Shown: in pieces, positions 1,510 to 14,449 of the stretch
Numbering within the stretch: the stretch's first letter is position 1
How the letters are laid out: each line of letters opens with the position of its first letter
Program-made: the position numbers and the translations under genes
Notes under the pieces: model-generated
What the model was told of the DNA's origin: nothing
Databases searched by the model: none
Seen by the model: the letters and a program-made list of their open reading frames with translations, nothing else
Assembly (NCBI GenBank): GCA_017999915.1
Contig: JAGNKX010000021.1
Span: 1 to 64,000, forward strand
Source of the DNA: Spirochaetota bacterium
GTDB taxonomy: Bacteria; Spirochaetota; UBA4802; UBA5550
DNA length: 64,000 nucleotides
Direction of reading: 5' to 3'

Positions 1510-3261
1510 ATGCAGGAAAAAACAGACAAACAAGCTCTTTCCGGTTTCAGCCTCATACGCAAGGTCAGTGCTATCGATAACCCGATTCTCCGTCATTTTA
1601 TAAAAAAGCATAAACTGGACGATCGTGACTCGCTGCTCCTTGGGGTCCTCCTGGACCTGACCGACCAGATGAAGACACCCATCAAGACCACCTATCGCGC
1701 TATTGCGGACACGACTGAACTCACGACCATGCAGGTCTATCGCAGTATCGGATCCCTCCATCGGAACCGGATCATAGAGTATAAACCGAGCGGCGATTAT
1801 GTCCACATATCATTCAGGGATATCGATGAATCGATCGAGGAGATTACTCTCGCCTATGAGAACGCGAAAAAGATAAAAAAGATAGAGGAGTATCTCGCCT
1901 TTATCCGCGCGCAGAAATATGTTCCTTCGGCCGAACTATACGACCTCATGTATCCTCTTGTCGGAAGGCTTGTGATGGCCAAAGTGGCGGAAGCCTTTCG
2001 TTCGCTGGTCAATTATATCAATGCCCGCCTCGAATCTTCGTTCAGCATCGCCATGTGGAAATACCGGATCACGAGCTTTCGAACGGGCATACCGCTGGCG
2101 GAAATCGTATTGAGAGAGTCGCTCCCGTATTATATCGACGAGATATTCCTTCTTCAGAAAAGGTCGTCGATCCTGCTGGGGCACGTGTCGCGTGACGACG
2201 AAAGATCGGTCGACAAGGATCTCGTGGGCGGGATGCTGGGCGCCATCAATGATTTTATCAAAACATCTTTTAAAAAGTCGAAGTCAGGCGTCGGAGAGAT
2301 CCAATTCGATGAATACCGGATCATGATTTTCGAAAGCATGTATTTTTATGCGGCAGTGGTCCTGTACGGCTCGCCGGACATGGATTTCCTCCATAGGGTC
2401 GACGCCGTCCTGAACGGGATTCATCAAGCGTACTCGCGCCGCTTGAAAAATTTCGACGGCGACATGGCGAAGCTTCAAGGCATCGACGCCCAGCTGCGCG
2501 ACCTTGTCGACGCGACCAATACCTCCGGGGGTTCCGGGGAGAAGGCGTCGCTTGCCAGGGTGAAGGCCGCCGGTGCCCTGCTCGCGATGTTCGCCGTGGC
2601 CGGCGTCGTCTGGCTGGGCTACACGTCATATAGGGACCGGCGGCTCGAGGGGAGGATCTCACATCGAGTCAACCAGGCGCTGCCTCCCTACTCCCATGAT
2701 GTCGACATCGATGTCAGCGGCGATACCGCCTCGGTCACCGGCACGGTCAGTTCGCGGCAGGCGGGGGACGCTATTTCCAGGGAAATACGTGCTTTTAAGG
2801 AGATCAGCCAGGTGCGCAACAGGACAGTGACGGCCGATTTCCGTTCCGTGGAGGCGTATAAAAAGGACCTCGATGAAATGCGGTCACGCCTTGAGTCCTT
2901 CCAGCTGGTCGCGGCACGGCAGGAGCTTGAGAAGATAGTCGTTCAGTTTCCCGCAGGCGTGTCCGCCATGGACAATCCGCAAACGCTCCAGGTCAGGCGG
3001 GCCTATGAGATTTTAAAGCAATATCCGCGCGTCCATGCGGATATTGTCGCCTTCAATGATCCCGCAGGCGGGTACGATGTCAACAAGGCTCTTGCGGAGA
3101 AGCGGATGAGATCGGTGCGCGATTCCCTGGCGGCCATGGGTATCGCCGGGGAACGGCTTCACCTGGTTGATTTTGATCCGGACATCCTTACCTCCGATTC
3201 GCGTTATACCGAATTCAGCGATCGCAGGGGGATCATGATGTTCGCACGGTATCCTGATTGA
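1510..3261 (+). CDS. transmembrane wHTH / BON / OmpA-like protein
   Basis: A 583-residue protein with an unusual layout. Residues 18-105 look like a winged helix (TTYRAIADTTELTTMQVYRS). Residues about 110-345 form a long helical region. One membrane segment lies at 353-371. After it comes a BON-like domain (about 378-443), then a C-terminal region resembling OmpA/MotB (NKALAEKRMRSVRDSLAAMG, then DRRGIMMFA). The usual OmpA GHTD element is replaced by AFNDPAG, so peptidoglycan binding is uncertain. The topology implies a cytoplasmic DNA-binding-like part and an extracytoplasmic sensor. A Ras-like GTPase starts 29 bases later and an HD-GYP gene overlaps that one, so all three are probably one signalling unit. 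Confidence 0.8.
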   Translation: MQEKTDKQALSGFSLIRKVSAIDNPILRHFIKKHKLDDRDSLLLGVLLDLTDQMKTPIKTTYRAIADTTELTTMQVYRSIGSLHRNRIIEYKPSGDYVHISFRDIDESIEEITLAYENAKKIKKIEEYLAFIRAQKYVPSAELYDLMYPLVGRLVMAKVAEAFRSLVNYINARLESSFSIAMWKYRITSFRTGIPLAEIVLRESLPYYIDEIFLLQKRSSILLGHVSRDDERSVDKDLVGGMLGAINDFIKTSFKKSKSGVGEIQFDEYRIMIFESMYFYAAVVLYGSPDMDFLHRVDAVLNGIHQAYSRRLKNFDGDMAKLQGIDAQLRDLVDATNTSGGSGEKASLARVKAAGALLAMFAVAGVVWLGYTSYRDRRLEGRISHRVNQALPPYSHDVDIDVSGDTASVTGTVSSRQAGDAISREIRAFKEISQVRNRTVTADFRSVEAYKKDLDEMRSRLESFQLVAARQELEKIVVQFPAGVSAMDNPQTLQVRRAYEILKQYPRVHADIVAFNDPAGGYDVNKALAEKRMRSVRDSLAAMGIAGERLHLVDFDPDILTSDSRYTEFSDRRGIMMFARYPD

Positions 3262-3290
3262 TGAACGGTTATCTGGAGGGAGAGGGAAAA

Positions 3291-3830
3291 ATGAGCACGG
3301 TTGAATTCAAGTTTAAAATCGTCATGCTGGGGGACTTTGCCGTCGGGAAGACCAGCCTCGTCAAGCGGTTCGTTTATAATGTTTTCGACGATATGTACCT
3401 GACCACGATAGGAGTGCGGGTGATGAAAAAGGAGGTCGTCATCAACGACAGGGGCCAGATTCAAATTACCCTGCTTCTCTGGGATATCGGGGGTCATCAG
3501 GATTTTCAGGAGGTCACACCCCAGTATCTTCAGGGCGCAAGCGGCGCCATTATCGTCGCGGATCAAACGCGCATACAGACGATGGAAAAAATTGAAAGCC
3601 ACATCGGGCAGTTCAGGGCGGAAAATCCCGGCGGCGCCATTGCCATTGCCTTCAACAAGAACGACCTGCGCCTGGAGACGGATAATCCTGACGGGGCGGA
3701 GCGACAGATCGCATTGAACCGGGAACGCCATGGCGATGCGGTATTCAGGACCAGCGCCAGAGACGGTGAAAATGTCCAGGATCTCTTTATATACCTTGCC
3801 GGAACGGTCTTGGGCGGGTTGCGCCGATGA
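3291..3830 (+). CDS. Ras-like small GTPase
   Basis: A 179-residue GTPase. P-loop GDFAVGKT at 14-21, switch I threonine near 38-39 (YLTTIG), DIGG at 65-68, NKND at 122-125 and an SA motif (TSARDG) for base recognition. The residue after DxxG, Gln in Ras and Arf, is His69, so intrinsic hydrolysis may be weak or need a partner. The start at 3291 has a GGAGGGAGAGGG ribosome site; the longer frame from 3258 lacks one. It sits between the transmembrane BON/OmpA-like protein and an HD-GYP phosphodiesterase and probably relays a signal between them. Confidence 0.9.
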   Translation: MSTVEFKFKIVMLGDFAVGKTSLVKRFVYNVFDDMYLTTIGVRVMKKEVVINDRGQIQITLLLWDIGGHQDFQEVTPQYLQGASGAIIVADQTRIQTMEKIESHIGQFRAENPGGAIAIAFNKNDLRLETDNPDGAERQIALNRERHGDAVFRTSARDGENVQDLFIYLAGTVLGGLRR

Positions 3831-4960
3831 AGGATGAACGGCTCAGCTTTTTAGTCGTCCGCTTCGGTATCTATTACGGAACAGTGGATAAGAAGCTTCG
3901 GGTGCGTTTCAGTGACGACGGCGTATTCGCGTTTCTCGGGGAAGAACCGGTAAACATGTGGATGATTCTCTCCGATTTTCTCCCTGAAACGGTGGGAATG
4001 GAAAAGGAAATAATGCGCATTATCAGCGGGGAGAAGGATGAGTGCAGCATTCTGAGCGTGAACAGGCAAACCGGCAACGAAATATTCTTCAACATCTATT
4101 TTCTGCGCGATCACCGTGAACCTGACAATTGCATCGTTGTGATCAAGGACCTCACCAATGAGCTACTCTATCGACAGGCCATTCAGCAGAAAAAAAACGA
4201 GATCGAGCTCCTGCACCAGATTCTGATGAAAAAGAACGCTGACCTGGACATGGCAAACCAGGAGCTGATGAAAAGCCACGATGAGCAATTCCGTCTGAAC
4301 CAGAGCCTGGAGATAAAGGTTCACGAACGAACGCACCAGCTGGAGGAAAGCACCATGCTTGCCCGGAGGCTCTTCAGCCAGACCGTCAACGCGCTGATGC
4401 TTGCCCTAGAAAAGCGCGACACCTATACCGTGGGCCATCAGCAGCGGGTCTCGGAGCTTGCCTGCGCTATAGCCAGGGAAATGAGGCTGGATGAATTCAT
4501 CGTCGAGGGAATAATCGTGGCCGGAAATCTCCATGATATCGGCAAGATCTATGTTCCCAGCGAGTTCCTGACTAAGCCCGGCGATCTTTCCGAGGAGGAG
4601 TTCGGCGTGATGAAGGCCCATCCGAAAATCGGGTTCGATATCCTGAGCGGAATCGAGTTCCCCTGGCCCGTGGCGGCCATCATCCTGCAGCATCACGAGC
4701 GCCTTGACGGGAGCGGGTACCCTTACGGTCTGACGGAGAAGGATATCCTTCTCGAGGCCAAGATTTTAAGCGTCGCGGACGTGGTTGAGGCAATGGCGAC
4801 GATGAGACCCTACCGTATCGCCCCCGGCCTTGAGCTGGCCCTGGAGGAGGTCAAACGGTACAGCGGCATACGCTATGACAGCACGGTGGCGGAAACCTGC
4901 ATCGGCCTGTTTGCCTCCCAAAAATTTGCGTGGAGCCATCTCGCCGGTCACCTCCGGTAA
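3827..4960 (+). CDS. HD-GYP phosphodiesterase with PAS-like input domain
   Basis: A 377-residue protein whose ATG overlaps the GTPase stop (ATGA). Residues about 1-115 look PAS-like, about 115-180 a coiled coil, and about 185-370 an HD-GYP domain with HDIGK (H236, D237) and HHERLDGSGYP. This family hydrolyses cyclic di-GMP or related cyclic dinucleotides. No membrane segment or receiver domain is visible, so control is likely through the PAS-like region or the neighbouring GTPase. The GTPase link is inferred from overlap only. Confidence 0.92.
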   Translation: MKDERLSFLVVRFGIYYGTVDKKLRVRFSDDGVFAFLGEEPVNMWMILSDFLPETVGMEKEIMRIISGEKDECSILSVNRQTGNEIFFNIYFLRDHREPDNCIVVIKDLTNELLYRQAIQQKKNEIELLHQILMKKNADLDMANQELMKSHDEQFRLNQSLEIKVHERTHQLEESTMLARRLFSQTVNALMLALEKRDTYTVGHQQRVSELACAIAREMRLDEFIVEGIIVAGNLHDIGKIYVPSEFLTKPGDLSEEEFGVMKAHPKIGFDILSGIEFPWPVAAIILQHHERLDGSGYPYGLTEKDILLEAKILSVADVVEAMATMRPYRIAPGLELALEEVKRYSGIRYDSTVAETCIGLFASQKFAWSHLAGHLR

Positions 4961-6702: not shown

Positions 6703-7656
6703 ATGAAAAAAATATCTACAACGGTAGTTGTCTTCATCGCCGCCGCTCTGATGGTGACGGGCTGTGAAAAGAAGAAAGATGATGACAAGGGATTACTCCT
6801 GGGCATGGCATATCTTGCGGCTAACGCGTTGCCGCCTACTCAGTATTCAGGCAGCGAACAAAACGTTGCCAGCGCCAGCAGCGCGCTTTTTGCCACATCT
6901 GCGGCAATGTCTCAAGTCAGAATTGAGGCAAATCCGGGGACCGGCATGATGCAAAGCGTATTCGGTGATGTGGACCCGAGCGCAAAAGATGGCCTTAAAA
7001 AATCCATACTTGATGCAGTGAATGCAAATGCAATCGAAAAAATGAAATATGTCAATACATCGTGCAGTGGCACTAATCAGATAAAATTTGATTTAACCCC
7101 TGCTGATGCTATTATTGGCACCAATTATACGATAACACCTGAAGTGCATGTTTCCGGAAGTTTTACCTGTAATAGTGCTGCAACTTCAGGCTCTTACAAT
7201 GTGGCGATAACAATAATCGGAAAAGTTACGGCGACTTTTAACAATACTGTTCAAGTATTTGACATTGTAAATTATCAAAATACAACACCACACAAAATTA
7301 ATTTTAAAGAAGTCTCCGTTAATGGCACTGTAACTATTTCTGATGTTAATGTCACAACCAATGTGTCATTTAACTATTCAGCCCTTCCACTTCCCAGTTT
7401 AGCACTCGTGGTAAATAATCTCAGCGGGGTAGCCATAGCAAGTGATTTGCAAATCGATGGGGGTACAGCTGTAGCGCTTAACCTGAATGTGGCTGAAAAA
7501 TTTAATTTCAATTTATCTCTCCTTGGCATATCAGGATCAGCGTCGGCGATTGTTGATGGAACTGTTAATAGCGAAGAAGTTTACATGAGCTACGGTTTTA
7601 GCGGTGATAATATATTCCAATTTAATTTACCGGCCCAGATCGGATATGCGCGATGA
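6703..7656 (+). CDS. putative lipoprotein, beta-rich
   Basis: A 317-residue predicted lipoprotein. I chose the ATG at 6703 because it begins a clean signal peptide ending in a lipobox (VTGC) and follows TTGAGGG. After the Cys comes a charged EKKKDDDK stretch and then LLLGMAYLA, a start shared with the lipoprotein at 29869-30942. The mature part is rich in Thr, Asn, Val and Ser with alternating hydrophobic residues, suggesting beta structure. The gene is more AT-rich than its neighbours. No known domain recognised. Confidence 0.8.
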   Translation: MKKISTTVVVFIAAALMVTGCEKKKDDDKGLLLGMAYLAANALPPTQYSGSEQNVASASSALFATSAAMSQVRIEANPGTGMMQSVFGDVDPSAKDGLKKSILDAVNANAIEKMKYVNTSCSGTNQIKFDLTPADAIIGTNYTITPEVHVSGSFTCNSAATSGSYNVAITIIGKVTATFNNTVQVFDIVNYQNTTPHKINFKEVSVNGTVTISDVNVTTNVSFNYSALPLPSLALVVNNLSGVAIASDLQIDGGTAVALNLNVAEKFNFNLSLLGISGSASAIVDGTVNSEEVYMSYGFSGDNIFQFNLPAQIGYAR

Positions 7657-7760
7657 TGTAACCAAAGTTTTGTATGTCTGTTTAATTGCCCGGTGTTAAG
7701 GGATATCTGAATTATTTCATTAAAGAGAGGCTGTCCCATATTACGGGATGGCCCCTTTGC

Positions 7761-8204
7761 TTAGTCAAAAGTGATGAATTTGGTTATGTCCGGCGGGTAT
7801 CCCCAGATGAGTTTCCAGCAGACTATGTTGTCAATGACCATTTTAGCCAAAACGTAATTCTTAAATAGATAGTTATCGGTAATATTTTTATTCATTATTC
7901 TTTTCAGATATTTTTTAACTGCATAGGCTAGAATTAAAGAAACAGACATCTTCAGCAGCTTCCTCAGGTCCAGGAAATACTCATAGTCATCCTCCCGTAA
8001 GCTTACATGGAACGTGCGCCACTCGCAGGGCATGCTTTTTTCCTGATATTGCACCAGCTTCCCAAGGCGGGAAGGATTGGCGATATCATCCATTACCTTT
8101 TTTAATAAAGTAACAATCAAATCAGAGCGCGAGATTCCTCTGGCCTTAGCCGCAGAATTGATCAGCCTGAAAATATCGACATGAATATTGAGTGTGGTTT
8201 CCAT
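7761..8204 (-). CDS. tandem ribbon-helix-helix-like protein, copy 1
   Basis: A 147-residue basic protein. Residues 3-39 have a beta strand (TTLNIHV) and two helices like a ribbon-helix-helix DNA-binding unit. Residues 64-101 repeat the pattern (TFHVSLR, then helices ending MSVSLILAYAVKKYL). It ends CWKLIWGYPPDI. A paralogue with the same order and the matching ending CWKLIWGFPANM lies at 50816-51265. The ATG at 8204 begins the strand motif and matches the paralogue's start. The gene is AT-rich with a GATAGTTATCGG motif in its coding region (7868-7879). Function unknown; DNA binding is inferred. Confidence 0.78.
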   Translation of the reverse strand: METTLNIHVDIFRLINSAAKARGISRSDLIVTLLKKVMDDIANPSRLGKLVQYQEKSMPCEWRTFHVSLREDDYEYFLDLRKLLKMSVSLILAYAVKKYLKRIMNKNITDNYLFKNYVLAKMVIDNIVCWKLIWGYPPDITKFITFD

Positions 8205-8281
8205 GGATTTTCTCTTGTCAATAAAAGATAGTATCAATATATTGTACGAATAGTAGTGAAAATCGTTAAAAAAAAATCTGG

Positions 8282-9064
8282 ATGCTGAGAATGCTGCCTC
8301 CTACCGTAACAATAAAAACACATCGGTATTCACCGGCAGGGGTGGAGCCTGTTGATTTGCTGATAAGCTCGGAGTATCATATTACCTTGCTGCTGAACGG
8401 CAGGCCCTGCCTTTCCGTGGCGTGTTCCGGTTCTGACCTGGAAATGCTGGCAGTGGGACACATGATCACCGAGGGGATCATCCTCTCAAAGGATGAAATC
8501 AAAGCAATACAGGTTGATGAGGAACGGAAAACGGTTAATGTGCTCCTCGTGGATAATGCCGATGTGTTCGGGCGCCTGATAAAAATACGAACCCTTGTGT
8601 CGGGATGCGCCGGATCGGGATCTGAATCGTCTGAAGATGTTCCCGTAAGACGGGATCTTCCGCGGGTCAATCCTGCGGTCATTACCTCCGCGATGCATGA
8701 GTTTTTGGGGCTATCGGAAATTCACAGCAAGACCCATGGCGTTCACAGCGCGGCGCTCTATGCCGTTGACGGGACGCGTGTCGTGTTTTTTGATGAGATC
8801 GGGAGGCACAATGCCGTTGACAAGGTGATCGGATTCGCCATGACCCATGGAGTTTCCCTGGACCGCATGATGCTCTTCAGCACCGGGCGGATAGCGACCG
8901 AGATCGCGTTAAAGGCGGCCAGGGCCGGCATACCCGTCCTCGTGACGCGGGCGTCCCCTACCAGCATGGCGGTGGATTTTGTCCGAAAAAAAAATATCAT
9001 CCTCATTACCGGCGTGCGCAAGGATGCCTTCTATGTTCACAATGGCGCCGAATACGTGGGATGA
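8282..9064 (+). CDS. fdhD: formate dehydrogenase accessory sulfurtransferase FdhD
   Basis: A 260-residue cytoplasmic protein. FdhD transfers sulfur to the molybdenum or tungsten cofactor of formate dehydrogenase. Family features are GHMITEGII, KTHGVHSAALY, DEIGRHNAVDKVIG and STGRIATEIALKAARAGIP. The loop that often has two cysteines reads SGCAGSG here and keeps one Cys. The ribosome site is weak, so the start could be the ATG at 8291. It converges with fdhE and mobA and serves the fdhAB genes downstream. Confidence 0.95.
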   Translation: MLRMLPPTVTIKTHRYSPAGVEPVDLLISSEYHITLLLNGRPCLSVACSGSDLEMLAVGHMITEGIILSKDEIKAIQVDEERKTVNVLLVDNADVFGRLIKIRTLVSGCAGSGSESSEDVPVRRDLPRVNPAVITSAMHEFLGLSEIHSKTHGVHSAALYAVDGTRVVFFDEIGRHNAVDKVIGFAMTHGVSLDRMMLFSTGRIATEIALKAARAGIPVLVTRASPTSMAVDFVRKKNIILITGVRKDAFYVHNGAEYVG

Positions 9065-9080
9065 TCGCAGCGCGCGCAAA

Positions 9081-9101
9081 CCCTGGGGCTCCGCTCCGGG
9101 G
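9081..9101 (+). terminator. weak hairpin after fdhD
   Basis: CCCTGG (9081-9086) pairs with CCGGGG (9096-9101) using one wobble pair and is followed by TATTTTAT. It lies in the 46-base gap between convergent fdhD and fdhE. Modest support. Confidence 0.4.
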
Positions 9102-9110
9102 TATTTTATA

Positions 9111-9956
9111 TCAGGGCTTATGGTATCCTTCTTTGAGGGCGGCGCTGTCAAGGCTTGCGGTAAGGATATTTTCCACGGTTAGGTCGCATCCCTCGATATC
9201 CTCGAATTTTTCCAGGCAAACCGTTTTCATGAAGCCCTTGCAGGTGGCGCACAGGTCAAGACGATGGCGGGAATCGTTCTCGGCGGAAAGGTATTCGAGC
9301 ATGGCGGCATCCTCGGTGCCGCAGACGGCGCAGGCTATCCTCTTGTAGGCCCACCGGTTCTCGCACAGTGAGCAGTGAAGGAACCTCTTCCCCTCCGAGC
9401 CGGGGACTATTGCGGCCATGTCGGGCTGATTGCCGCAGAAAGGACAGTATGGCGAGTCAAGCGTATCGGGATTCAAAATATCACTCTTCTCTCTCAGGCT
9501 GATAAAAAACGGCTTCAGCCAGTTAATTAGCACGAATATCGTTCCGTCGGGACTGATCTTATGGGTGATGGCGAACTGGTTAAGCCGATCGGCATCCATA
9601 TCGAGGACCGCGTCAAGGATCCGGCTCAGTGTGCCGGGATCTGACGCAACAGCCTGATGAAGGGGCTCGAGATGGAGTCCCGGATTGCGGGTCTCTACGA
9701 TTTCGATGATCGGCGCCAGACCGGGTAGAAGAAGGTCGGCCAGTGCGGTTCCGTCCACTTTTGCTTTTCCATTTTTCGAAACGGGCAAATCCGTTTCAAT
9801 GATCTTAGGGAGGCGGGGGTCGTTTATGATGCGATCGAACTGCTTCCGATGGTATGAAAACAGGTCCTGGTAAAAGCTGATCATGTCGTCGGTCAATACG
9901 CCGCCGGCCTGGATCGTTTTATTCTTGTCATTTAAATAAGCGATGTGATCTTCCAT
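9111..9956 (-). CDS. fdhE: formate dehydrogenase accessory protein FdhE
   Basis: A 281-residue protein. The C-terminal half carries the rubredoxin-like CxxC pairs of FdhE: CPFC, CSLC, CAVC and CATC. FdhE homologues bind iron through these pairs and assist formate dehydrogenase assembly, often before Tat export. I chose the ATG at 9956, which has GGGAG seven bases upstream, over the ATG at 9977. It directly follows mobA on the same strand, so the two likely form a maturation operon for the FDH encoded just upstream. Confidence 0.9.
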   Translation of the reverse strand: MEDHIAYLNDKNKTIQAGGVLTDDMISFYQDLFSYHRKQFDRIINDPRLPKIIETDLPVSKNGKAKVDGTALADLLLPGLAPIIEIVETRNPGLHLEPLHQAVASDPGTLSRILDAVLDMDADRLNQFAITHKISPDGTIFVLINWLKPFFISLREKSDILNPDTLDSPYCPFCGNQPDMAAIVPGSEGKRFLHCSLCENRWAYKRIACAVCGTEDAAMLEYLSAENDSRHRLDLCATCKGFMKTVCLEKFEDIEGCDLTVENILTASLDSAALKEGYHKP

Positions 9957-9980
9957 GTCGAAACTCCCGATTTGCAATGG

Positions 9981-10562
9981 TCATTGCTCCGCGTCAATTC
10001 GATAATTGATATTTCTGAAGACTGCCTCAGGGTCTGCATATGCCCGAATTTCATCAGCCGTTACCTGCCTGACGGTTACTTGATCGAAAAATCTGAAAAT
10101 CTGGCGTTTGCCCTCCTGTATGAGTGTCTCCATCGGGGCAATGCATGACTTTGAATATATCGCGTGGAGCGGTTCGTAAAATCCGCCTATAAAAGGTATT
10201 ACTACATCAACGTTTTCGGAAAGTTCAATCATGTGCCGTATCAGTCCGGTGTTAAGGCCCGGCATGTCGCAGGCGAATATGAAAATCCGTCCGGTATCGG
10301 CTACCCGGAGCGCCGTATATAATCCACCGAGGGGACCGATGCCGGGTACAATGTCCCGATGGGAAGGGAGGCCGAGGTAATCGAATTTTTCCGCGTCGTC
10401 GCCGATGATGGCGATACGATTGAAAACCGGCCGTATTGCCTCAATCACGTGCTCGATGAGGGGTTTGCCGTGGTATAAGAAAACGGCCTTATCCTCGCCG
10501 AACCTGCTGCTTTTGCCGCCGGCAATGATGAAGGCTGATATGTCATTGGAATGCATTGGCAT
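9981..10562 (-). CDS. mobA: molybdenum cofactor guanylyltransferase
   Basis: A 193-residue nucleotidyltransferase. Signature AFIIAGGKSSRFGEDKA near the N-terminus, FACDMPG for metal binding and NINY near the end. MobA adds GMP to molybdopterin to make the bis-MGD cofactor needed by formate dehydrogenases. It lies between the fdhB terminator and fdhE, so it is likely dedicated to FdhA maturation. Confidence 0.93.
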   Translation of the reverse strand: MPMHSNDISAFIIAGGKSSRFGEDKAVFLYHGKPLIEHVIEAIRPVFNRIAIIGDDAEKFDYLGLPSHRDIVPGIGPLGGLYTALRVADTGRIFIFACDMPGLNTGLIRHMIELSENVDVVIPFIGGFYEPLHAIYSKSCIAPMETLIQEGKRQIFRFFDQVTVRQVTADEIRAYADPEAVFRNINYRIDAEQ

Positions 10563-10605
10563 GATACTTCTACGAAAAGATCGTGTTCACGCTGGAACAG
10601 AAAAT

Positions 10606-10641
10606 AAACCCCGCGGAAGGATGTTCCATTCCGCAGGGTTT
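10606..10641 (-). terminator. intrinsic terminator after fdhAB
   Basis: On the minus strand a 13-bp stem (arms 10641-10629 and 10618-10606) with one G-U pair and a 10-base loop is followed by TTTATTTT, directly after fdhB. It separates fdhAB from mobA-fdhE. Confidence 0.8.
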
Positions 10642-10663
10642 CCGTGTCAAATTAAATATAGGA

Positions 10664-11467
10664 TTATCCCACCATCTTTTTGGCCATCTTATAGGCCATG
10701 CGCTTCAGCGTGGGAACACCCATGGAGAAGAGCGCCAGGGCGCGGTAGGTGTCCTTGATCGCTTCCGCCTTGTGAATGTCGATTGCCTTCGGATGGAGCG
10801 GCAGTCCGTATTTGTCGGGGCTGTCCTTCAGGATCGTGATGACCCGCAGCCCGCCGAACTGCTCGTCGCCGTAAAGGCTTGCCCGGGGAAACTCGGTCGA
10901 AACCTGTTTCAGCCGTGTCCGCGCCTTGCGCATCAGGGCCGCCCGCTCCCCGAAGGTAAGGGCGCCGGTGGGGCAATGATACGCGCAGGCGGGCACGTCC
11001 CGCTTGTTCACCGTGCAGGCGTGGCACTTGTACGACTTGTCCCTGATGAGGGGCTGTTCCGACCCGTACTTGTGCATGTTTTCGTCAAGGACATGGGGAA
11101 CCTTGTAGATGCATTCGTTCACGCAGGCCCCGCAGCCGATGCATTTTGACTGGTCGATGACCGTCCACCCGTCGAGCTTGCTTATCGCGTGCTCTGGGCA
11201 AATGCGCAGGCAGTTGGCCTCCTCGCAGTGATAGCACTTCTTGTGCATGATCGTCCAGACCGGCTTTTCCGGGTTTGAACGATCGATGGGGAAGAACTTC
11301 ACGTGGTTGAAGGTTATCGCCGTAAGCTCGGCCGGGTTGGTGTATTCCGGCCCGGCGAAGAAGGTGGTCTTCTCGCCGGGAAGGTTGTTCCACTGCTTGC
11401 ACGCCACCTGGCATGACCGGCACCCGGAGCACTTGGTTGTATCCACTAAAAACGCTTTTCCTGACAT
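10664..11467 (-). CDS. fdhB: formate dehydrogenase iron-sulfur subunit
   Basis: A 267-residue four-cluster ferredoxin subunit. Cysteine motifs in order: CSGCRSCQVAC, CYHCEEANCLRIC, CIGCGACVNEC and CHACTVNKRDVPACAYHC, enough for four [4Fe-4S] clusters as in FdnH-type beta subunits. It carries electrons from the Mo/W-bis-MGD site of FdhA. There is no obvious C-terminal membrane anchor, only an amphipathic basic tail. It follows fdhA after a three-base gap. Confidence 0.94.
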   Translation of the reverse strand: MSGKAFLVDTTKCSGCRSCQVACKQWNNLPGEKTTFFAGPEYTNPAELTAITFNHVKFFPIDRSNPEKPVWTIMHKKCYHCEEANCLRICPEHAISKLDGWTVIDQSKCIGCGACVNECIYKVPHVLDENMHKYGSEQPLIRDKSYKCHACTVNKRDVPACAYHCPTGALTFGERAALMRKARTRLKQVSTEFPRASLYGDEQFGGLRVITILKDSPDKYGLPLHPKAIDIHKAEAIKDTYRALALFSMGVPTLKRMAYKMAKKMVG

Positions 11468-11470
11468 GGT

Positions 11471-14449
11471 TTATGCCTCCTTCCTGATGTCCACCAGGAA
11501 CGCCTTGAATTCAGGGATCATGGTGTTGGCGTCCCCGATCGAGGGGGTGAGCTGGTTGCAAGCGTCGCCGGTGGCGGCGCATCCCGGGCCGAAATGCCAG
11601 ATCATGCCTACCATCTCGACCATCCTTCCATTGACGTTAAGGGGCTGGACGCGTTCGGTCACCAGTGCGTAGGCGGTGATCCTGCCCCTGGCGTTGAAGA
11701 TGCTTACCTTGTCGCCGTGCTTGATCCCCTTGGCTGCCGCCAGGGTGGGGCTTATTTCGCAGAACATGTCGGGAACGAGCTCCGTGAGCCAGGGCAGGTT
11801 ACGCGTCATGGCGCCGGCCTGCCAGTGCTCGACCACCCGGTATGATGTTCCGATGTAGGGATACTGGCCGGGATTGCCGAATTGACCGGCGACCTCGCCT
11901 ATAATGACCGAGGCCGGATTGACCTTCTGGCTGTTCATCATGTTCGGTATCGGCGTCTCCATCGGCTCATAATGCTCGGTGAAGGGACCGTCGGTGAGAG
12001 CCTTGCCGGGAGAGAAGAGGCGTCCCATGCCCTCGTTGTTCATGATGAAGGGGTTCTTGGCTTCGGGGCCGAATTTCGGGCCGCCGTCCGGGATATCGCC
12101 CTTCCATTTGCTGCCGGTCCACTTTACGACCCAGCGGTTCGGGTCCCACGGCTCGCCCTTGCGGTTGACCGCCGCCCTGTTGTAAATGATGCGCCGGTTC
12201 AGGGGCCAGCACCAGGACCATTCAGGGAACATGCCTATCTTGTTGGAGGCGTCGCTCGTTCCGCGGCGCGCCATCAGGTTCTTGCTTGAGCCCGGGTAGC
12301 TGCCGCAGTAGATCCAGCATCCGCAGGCGGTGGATCCGTCGTCCTTGAGGTCCATGAAGGTTTTCATCTGGTCCTTGTCGGGCCAGGTGTAGCCGTTGAT
12401 CTCCTTCGCGACCAGGTGCGGCGATGCTTCGTGCTCGCCTTCCTCAACGTAATTCCAGTTCGATTTAAGTATCGGATCGGGAAACTTGCCCCCTTCTTTT
12501 TTGTAAAGGTTTCTGATTTCCTTGAACAAAAGGTCGACGATGTCCAGGTCGGATTTAGATTTGCCAACCGGGTGCACCGCCTTGTAGCGCCACTGGGCCC
12601 ACCGCCCGGAATTGGAAATGCTTCCTTCCTTTTCCACGGAGGATGCCGCCGGAAGGAGGAATACCTCTGTCTTGATCTGGGCCGGATTCACTCCCGGACG
12701 CTTCCAGAACACCGACGAATCCGTTTCCCACAGGTCTACCGCGACGAGCCAGTCGAGCTTGTCCATGGCCTGGGCGTTCCGGTTCGCGTTGGGACCGCCC
12801 ACGACCGGGTTGGTTCCCATGTAGAAGGCGCCCTTGATGATGCCTTTCAGCATGTCCTCGAAAAGGATTATGTAGGGGGACGGCTTGCCAAACTTCGGCA
12901 GCCAGTTATAGCAGAAGTCGTTTTTCTTCGTTGCCGCGTCGCCGTACCAGGCTTTCAGCATGCTCACCAGGTACTTGGGCCTGTTAGACCACCAGTTGAT
13001 GCTCATCGGGTCATTGCTCTGGGGCGTCGTCTTGTTGTACGCTTCCAGGGTGGGGTGGTCCTTGGCGCTGGGGCACGGCATGTAGCCCGGTATTATATGG
13101 AAAAGGAGGGCGTGATCCGTCGATCCCTGGACATTGGATTCGCCGCGGAGGGCGTTGATGCCGCCGCCGGCGAGACCCATGTTGCCCATGAGAAGCTGGA
13201 GGATTGCCAGCGCCCGCACGTTCTGGGTGCCCACCGTGTGCTGGGTGATGCCCATGGCATACATGAAGTTCGCCACCTTGTCCGGTTTGTGGGTTGACGT
13301 GAACAGCTCGGCGACCTTGAGGAATGTATCCTTCGGGCATCCGGTGATTGCCGCCACTTTCTCCGGCGTGTAGCGCTCGTAATGCTTCTTCATGAGCTGG
13401 TATACGCACTGGGGATTCTTGAGCGACTTGTCCCTTTTGGGTATCTTCTTGTCATCCGCCTGGTAGGTCCAGGTCTTGCGGTCGCCGTAATTGCGCTTGC
13501 CCGCGTCATATCCTGAAAAGAGGCCGTCGTTGAACTTGTAGTCGGGGTTCACCAGGTATGACGCGTTGGTGTATTCCACCACGTATTCCTTCTGAATCCT
13601 GTTTGTCTCAAGGGCGTAATTGATTATGCCGTTGAGAAAGGCCAGGTCCGTACCGGACCGAATGGGCGCGTACAGCGTCGCGAGGGAGGCCGATTTGGTG
13701 TAGCGGGGATCCACAACGATGAGCTTGGTCCCGCGCTCCTCCATCCCCTTTACGATCCAGCGGAATGAAATGGGATGGTTTTCGGCAGCGTTACTGCCTA
13801 TCATGAAAACAACGTCAGAGTTCTTAATATCAATCCAGTGATTCGTCATGGCACCCCGGCCGAATGATGCCGCCAGACCGGCGACAGTTGCGGAGTGTCA
13901 AATACGGGCCTGATGTTCTAGATAGGTGACGCCCATGGTCCTCATGAATTTCGAGAGGACGTAGCATTCCTCGTTGTCGAGGGCGGCGCCGCCGAGGCTC
14001 GCGATGCCCGGCGTACGGTTCACGATAACATCGCCGTCCTTTTCCTGGAACGTGGCGTCGCGCGTTTCCTTGACGCGGCGGGCAATTTTCTTGATGGCGT
14101 CTTCCCATGATATTTCTTCCCACTCGGTGCCGTAGGGCTTACGGTACTGCACCTTGGCGAGACGACGCTCGTTCACGCCCACCTGGAACAGGGCGCTTCC
14201 CTTGGAGCAGAGGCTTCCCTGGTTGATGGGATGATCTGGATCGCCTTCGATGTTCACGATCTTACCGCCCTTGGTCGAGACGATAAGGCCGCACCCAACG
14301 CCGCAGTACGGGCAAATGGTGGTCGATTCTTTCGTGCCGCTCAGTTTATCTGCTGATTTACAGCCGCTCAGGAACGCAGTGCCGCCGATAAAGGCGCCGG
14401 CAGCGGTCATTCCCGAGAGTTTAAGAAAATCCCTACGGGATAAAGGCAT
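11471..14449 (-). CDS. fdhA: selenocysteine formate dehydrogenase catalytic subunit
   Basis: One gene read through an in-frame TGA (13900-13898) as selenocysteine 184, giving 992 residues. The context ARI-U-HSATVAGL then FGRGAMTNHW matches the Sec site of FdnG/FdhF enzymes; a stop-to-start reading would split one continuous protein. N-terminus: twin-arginine signal SRRDFLKLSG and a lipobox-like FLSGC, so it is probably exported. Cluster ligands C46, C49, C53, C81 (CPYCGVGCG) bind [4Fe-4S]. The rest is the Mo/W-bis-MGD domain, including a C-terminal dinucleotide-binding part. AGGAGG precedes the ATG. It oxidises formate, or reduces CO2, with FdhB as electron carrier. Confidence 0.95.
13869..13900 (-). 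promoter_or_regulatory. bacterial SECIS element in fdhA
   Basis: After the UGA come 12 bases, then a six-pair stem GUCGCC/GGCGGC (13885-13880 with 13874-13869) closing a GGUCU loop. The loop and its distance from UGA equal those of the E. coli fdhF SECIS from memory of that element. It would recruit SelB for selenocysteine insertion. Confidence 0.85.

Follow-up and report, generated by a model that had tools for sequence, protein, structure and literature searches.

What kind of system is formed by three adjacent genes near the start of contig JAGNKX010000021.1 (assembly GCA_017999915.1) of a Spirochaetota bacterium, of which the first 64,000 nucleotides, referred to here as the window, were analyzed? 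In order, the genes encode a membrane protein with a DNA-binding-like N-terminus (ORF1), a small Ras/Rab-like GTPase, and an output protein with PAS and HD-GYP domains (ORF3); in an earlier note on this DNA the trio was not recognized as a described system. All three genes were confirmed at the positions that had been assigned to them (Table 1), with 29 bases between ORF1 and the GTPase gene and a 4-base overlap (ATGA) between the latter and ORF3; they form a compact operon, and the genome holds exactly one copy of each component. The claim of an undescribed system is rejected, since the operon matches three of the four components of the published neighborhood of Group 1 Rup GTPases (PMC4316618), and the trio is probably a spirochaete variant of this Rab-like system, which is published but, in the literature consulted, apparently uncharacterized.

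As described by Wuichet and Søgaard-Andersen (2014; PMC4316618), Group 1 Rup GTPases do not have the Gln of the G3 motif and are encoded beside a coiled-coil protein, a protein in which a conserved unknown domain is joined to a transmembrane (TM) segment and OmpA, and a signaling output protein, the N-terminus of which has an invariant Gln, possibly provided in trans; the outputs are "typically" GGDEF/EAL proteins or histidine kinases, and spirochaetes are not mentioned. In the window operon, likewise, the small Ras/Rab-like GTPase lacks the G3 Gln and has no MglB/Roadblock partner, its neighbor has the unknown domain, one TM segment and OmpA, and the output N-terminus carries the invariant Gln; because it shares these traits with Rup loci, save the coiled-coil gene, the operon is classed as a Rup variant, and gene context and the absence of MglB speak for a GTPase of the Rup clade and not of MglA. 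It differs in that ORF1 adds a winged helix, in that the unknown domain is here predicted to be longin-like and the output N-terminus to be PAS, and in that the spirochaete outputs are HD-GYP proteins, SpoIIE phosphatases, a histidine kinase or a probable cyclase. Homologous operons occur on Mesorhizobium pWSM1497 (annotated as OmpA family protein, Rab family GTPase and cyclase), Rhizobium pCC1099_1 and Nostoc pn1, each including the coiled-coil gene.

Two other bacterial systems, the actinobacterial conservon (CvnA-D) and the MglA/MglB switch of Myxococcus and Thermus, were rejected because their Roadblock/LC7 partner (CvnB or MglB) is absent: no Robl_LC7 (PF03259) protein was detected in the genome of the window or in 296 spirochaetes, with the control positive in three named genomes. 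The conservon, to which Rup systems have been likened in a published hypothesis, also pairs a Ras-like GTPase with a membrane protein in one operon, but the window operon encodes neither CvnB nor a CvnA kinase, and by gene context its GTPase does not fall in the MglA group. As for MglA/MglB, the likeness is that a Ras-like GTPase has a Longin/Roadblock-class partner (fold match to MglC, 7ct3), whereas in the window this partner lies within a membrane-OmpA protein, the genome gave no Robl_LC7 homologue, and the G3 Gln is missing. Finally, eukaryotic Rab GTPases with longin exchange factors (Mon1-Ccz1, TRAPP; Inturned) resemble the window system in combining a Rab-like GTPase with a predicted longin fold, as indicated by fold matches to 5ldd (Mon1-Ccz1) and TRAPP chains and by one weak Pfam match (Intu_longin_1); this likeness is at fold level, and the window system differs in being bacterial, presumably anchored to peptidoglycan, with no TRAPP or DENN modules seen.

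The most informative part of ORF1, overlooked in the earlier note, is its cytoplasmic domain, residues about 128-350. It is the part that ORF1 has in common with shorter proteins from other families of spirochaetes (G349, G354, G070, G046 and G105), in which it is followed by a TM segment and not preceded by a winged helix; an OmpA domain is detectable after the TM in G349 and G070, in the latter under the gathering score. The domain also aligns with the proteins of Mesorhizobium, Rhizobium and Nostoc that adjoin Rab-like GTPase genes. Its AlphaFold2 model, built from an alignment of 11 sequences (pLDDT 71, pTM 0.56), has the element order bb-a-bbb-a, and all 50 PDB fold matches listed were of the Longin/Roadblock class or complexes with such proteins, including Ykt6 (TMt 0.68) and Sec22b (TMt 0.69), TRAPP, Mon1-Ccz1, Ragulator, the Rag C-terminal domains, AP sigma, COP zeta, a Lokiarchaeal longin and MglC. 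The model thus assigns residues 128-350 to the Longin/Roadblock fold with moderate confidence, and the domain is proposed to be a natural GTPase-binding platform; since no Roadblock protein was found in the 296 spirochaetes, it is the best candidate for the regulator of the GTPase. According to an Asgard study (PMC10933270), Longin/Roadblock proteins are mostly exchange factors and now and then GTPase-activating proteins (GAPs), for which reason exchange or recruitment is favored over hydrolysis. No publication reporting a longin in Rup loci was found in a search mainly of open-access journal papers.

Regarding the outputs, the partner proteins have about 135 N-terminal residues in common, with different domains behind. 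The model of this shared part (pLDDT 86.6, pTM 0.75) shows a PAS domain that continues into a long exit helix, and nearly all the PDB fold matches listed were PAS domains, so that a PAS fold is predicted with good confidence; it is seen through the model, a PDB sequence-profile search with the same region having given no match. In the exit helix, Gln121 is identical in 26 of 26 aligned output proteins from Spirochaetota, Alphaproteobacteria and Cyanobacteria, and Gln120 is nearly so. Behind it, ORF3 has all its HD-GYP motifs intact, those of the metal ligands included (EKRDTYTVGH 195, HDIGK 236, HP 265, HHE 289, GSGYP 295, VAD 316) and is a predicted phosphodiesterase of cyclic di-GMP (c-di-GMP). 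HD-GYP outputs were found at the window, L051, L054, L055, L056, L061 and L065; SpoIIE phosphatases, with or without extra PAS domains, at L050, L053, L055, L056, L062 and L065; and a histidine kinase at L063, several loci having two output proteins. The protein adjoining the L064 GTPase gave a weak cyclase match (E = 0.034) and is probably a class III cyclase. HD-GYP is therefore one of several interchangeable outputs, and of the link drawn in the earlier note between envelope sensing, GTP state and c-di-GMP breakdown, the connection as such seems likely, while c-di-GMP breakdown is not a defining feature of the system.

The GTPase probably starts at the ATG at 3291, which is preceded by GGAGGGAGAGG; a longer frame from a TTG at 3258 is disfavored. 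It is a single-domain protein, under the 240-aa criterion for Rup, and has motifs G1-G5 (GDFAVGKT, WDIGG, NKND and TSA among them). The replacement of its catalytic Gln by His69, read earlier from the DNA, holds (DIGGH), and most relatives lack the Gln as well: among 21 aligned GTPases the G3 position is H, L, S, N, D, E, K or Q, with Gln in just two (L123 and L124). Two GTPases each were found in G035 (locus L050) and G039; in L050 a gene for a PAS-PAS-SpoIIE output lies between the two Rab-like GTPase genes (8707-11690), the second GTPase having WDIAGSD in place of WDIGGL in its G3 region. A natural near-fusion was observed at L054 (G033; 6793-10221, (-) strand), where the ORF1, GTPase and HD-GYP genes share one reading frame, with gaps of 36 and 3 bases.

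The remaining parts of ORF1 agree with the earlier description of a DNA-binding-like domain joined to BON/OmpA, on the evidence of weak helix-turn-helix (HTH), BON and OmpA profile matches and of a hydropathy peak. Over 12 members, the N-terminus gave weak matches to several unrelated HTH families (HTH_36 in four, HTH_Crp_2 in four, HTH_IclR in three; best 5.8e-5). The winged helix was seen in this spirochaete order alone, being missing from the homologues read in other families and phyla; as an addition particular to the order, it may bind DNA or serve to contact another protein. As for the C-terminal half, the OmpA domain of a distant relative exceeds the Pfam gathering score (29.7 versus 27.2 bits), and Asp517 and Arg532 are invariant in 11 aligned homologues, at positions that we take to be those of the peptidoglycan-binding Asp and Arg of OmpA; the BON-OmpA part would lie in the periplasm and probably holds peptidoglycan. 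Between TM and OmpA, the Mesorhizobium pWSM1497 protein (L135 7794-10859) carries a periplasmic repeat of ~130 aa in about four nearly identical copies, and the related Rhizobium protein (L136) has repeats of the same type.

The distribution of the system was surveyed in 46 genomes of the order of the window. Of these, 14 have an ORF1 homologue, whole or split (families f1, f4, f5 and f6). Conserved adjacency, a check proposed in the earlier note, where its absence was named as refuting, is present throughout, with a homologous GTPase and PAS partner beside ORF1 in 14/14; for this reason the trio is taken as more than a product of chance. None of the 32 ORF1-negative genomes has a true GTPase homologue (G028 gave a weak match within an 843-aa frame), and most have none of the three components, the exceptions being G027 and G036, with an orphan PAS/HD-GYP protein; in the orphans (L143 5467-6603 and L144 5306-6415, respectively) the conserved QQ and the following helix are retained. 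All three components are missing from the five genomes of the same genus. Pairwise distances of ORF1 and the GTPase correlate (Pearson 0.93, Spearman 0.74), and no p value is given, the relatives not being independent samples. The ORF1 and GTPase copies of G022 and G035, two genomes of one genus, are not sisters, which suggests transfer or differential loss, and the genes flanking the trio mostly differ between loci. In other spirochaete families, the GTPase adjoins the ORF1 homologue in G349 and G354 and lies on a separate contig in G046, G105 and G070; in this split arrangement, which belongs to one family (L063, L064, L122, L125, L132), the longin-like/OmpA protein of G046 is accompanied by a PAS-histidine kinase and the G046 GTPase is followed by a cyclase-like protein. 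Lastly, an uncharacterized protein of ~280 aa is encoded beside Rup loci in two families of spirochaetes (L124 5606-6448 and L123 371-1222) and may be an extra component; the L124 copy, the one scanned, gave no Pfam match.

A working scheme can be proposed from these parts. Gene content, linkage, homology to the Rup loci, the invariant output Gln and the missing G3 Gln are observed, whereas the direction of regulation, exchange, supply of Gln in trans, DNA binding and c-di-GMP output are inferred. ORF1 would span the inner membrane, with BON-OmpA in the periplasm and the winged helix and longin-like platform in the cytoplasm; the envelope state, sensed by BON-OmpA, would be relayed through the TM segment to the longin-like domain, which would bind the GTPase and set its nucleotide state, more likely by exchange or recruitment than by hydrolysis. 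The GTP-bound GTPase would then dock on the HD-GYP protein, at its PAS domain and exit helix, and alter its c-di-GMP phosphodiesterase activity, until Gln121, substituting for the missing G3 Gln, ended the signal, so that the effector would double as a GAP; the winged helix may provide a second, transcriptional output. In its strongest form, the scheme has the peptidoglycan-anchored longin protein dedicated to nucleotide exchange on a Rab-like GTPase, a counterpart and possible relative of eukaryotic pairs of Rab and longin exchange factor, with the PAS-helix effector giving the catalytic Gln in trans; this form is speculative and rather unlikely.

Several observations weigh against the assignment to Rup and the scheme built on it. 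The Rup coiled-coil protein was not found beside the window operon or in the 46 genomes, a weak test with a profile of three sequences. The longin model has modest scores, Pfam longin profiles gave a single weak match among 18 members (Intu_longin_1, E = 0.0035), and the sequence profile of the middle domain, run against PDB sequences, did not recover a longin, giving weak coiled-coil-type matches, BRE1 and syntaxin among them; as longin and Roadblock sequence profiles largely miss the domain, it is called longin-like and not placed in the longin family. In addition, the orphans of G027 and G036 indicate that the PAS/HD-GYP protein can exist without the switch. In a rival reading, ORF1 is a mere tether of the complex to the envelope, with the longin-like domain a scaffold devoid of exchange or GAP activity and the GTPase set by factors elsewhere: many of the fold matches (Ragulator, AP sigma, COP zeta) are scaffolds and not exchange factors, and no more than 6 residues of the middle domain are identical in all 18 members, which come from three phyla. 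However, the genome has no other Roadblock-type candidate regulator, and within this order ORF1 never occurs without the GTPase beside it, which makes a pure tether rather unlikely.

The combination of winged helix, TM segment and periplasmic domain would also suit a membrane-bound one-component transcription factor of the ToxR/CadC type that senses the envelope, the GTPase and HD-GYP genes then being a separate c-di-GMP module co-transcribed by happenstance. This is improbable as the main function of ORF1, given that the homologues in other spirochaete families, Nostoc and Mesorhizobium keep the middle domain without the winged helix, and that this shorter form adjoins the GTPase in G349, G354, Nostoc and Mesorhizobium; moreover, no inverted repeat is common to the regions upstream of ORF1, none that could be an operator for the winged helix being present in the window or L051, and those in L050 and L052 not being shared. 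Far less credible still is a neighborhood due to chance or phylogenetic inertia and devoid of a functional link: the relatives do share ancestry and the assemblies are fragmentary metagenome bins, but the trio is patchy in the order (0/5 genomes of the same genus), and yet its genes were gained or retained together, within mostly different flanking genes, with non-sister copies in G022 and G035 and with the same trio in three phyla. A Group 1 Rup variant is the preferred reading of the operon.

The features of the operon are collected in Table 1. Promoter and terminator scans gave no candidate on the coding strand. Upstream of ORF1, a divergent Rrf2-type regulator and a zinc-ribbon protein are encoded on the (-) strand (205-1301), and a sigma-70-like site with a good match (TTGACA-17-TATTAT) lies on the same strand at 1329-1301.

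Table 1. Features of the operon in the window; domain limits and functions are predictions.
Feature	Position	Strand	Basis
ORF1, 583 aa: winged helix, longin-like cytoplasmic domain, single TM, BON, OmpA-like	1510..3261	+	
Winged-helix-like N-terminal domain of ORF1, limits approximate	1549..1830	+	Weak HTH matches across 12 members
Conserved cytoplasmic domain of ORF1, residues 128-350; longin-like core about residues 207-339 (2128-2526)	1891..2559	+	AlphaFold2; PDB fold matches
Single TM segment of ORF1, residues about 351-369	2560..2616	+	Hydropathy maximum
BON domain of ORF1, residues 376-439	2635..2826	+	Pfam BON E = 1.8e-4, under gathering score
OmpA-like domain of ORF1, residues 480-553	2947..3168	+	Pfam OmpA E = 1.4e-3, under gathering score; alignment
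Small Ras/Rab-like GTPase, 179 aa	3291..3830	+	Pfam Ras 2.1e-26, Roc 1.1e-25; alignment of 21 relatives
His69 codon of the GTPase, G3 position	3495..3497	+	DIGGH; Gln in most Ras-superfamily proteins
ORF3, output protein, 377 aa: PAS, helix, coiled coil, HD-GYP	3827..4960	+	4-base overlap with GTPase gene
N-terminal PAS domain of ORF3, residues 1-109	3827..4153	+	AlphaFold2; PDB matches; common to all output proteins of these loci
Gln120-Gln121 of ORF3, in helix leaving PAS (residues 110-134)	4184..4189	+	Alignment, model
HD-GYP domain of ORF3, residues 192-354	4400..4888	+	Pfam HD_5 2.6e-34; motifs intact

In conclusion, what is new here is a spirochaete Rup variant with a winged helix and interchangeable HD-GYP, SpoIIE and histidine-kinase outputs, together with the model-based assignment of the published unknown domain as longin-like and of the output N-terminus as PAS, with Gln121 in its exit helix. 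The predicted longin-type domain of an obligate membrane partner and the invariant exit-helix Gln offer concrete domains and residues that can be tested, and the exchange of HD-GYP, SpoIIE and kinase modules behind one predicted PAS domain would represent a natural modular GTP-controlled switch in bacteria.

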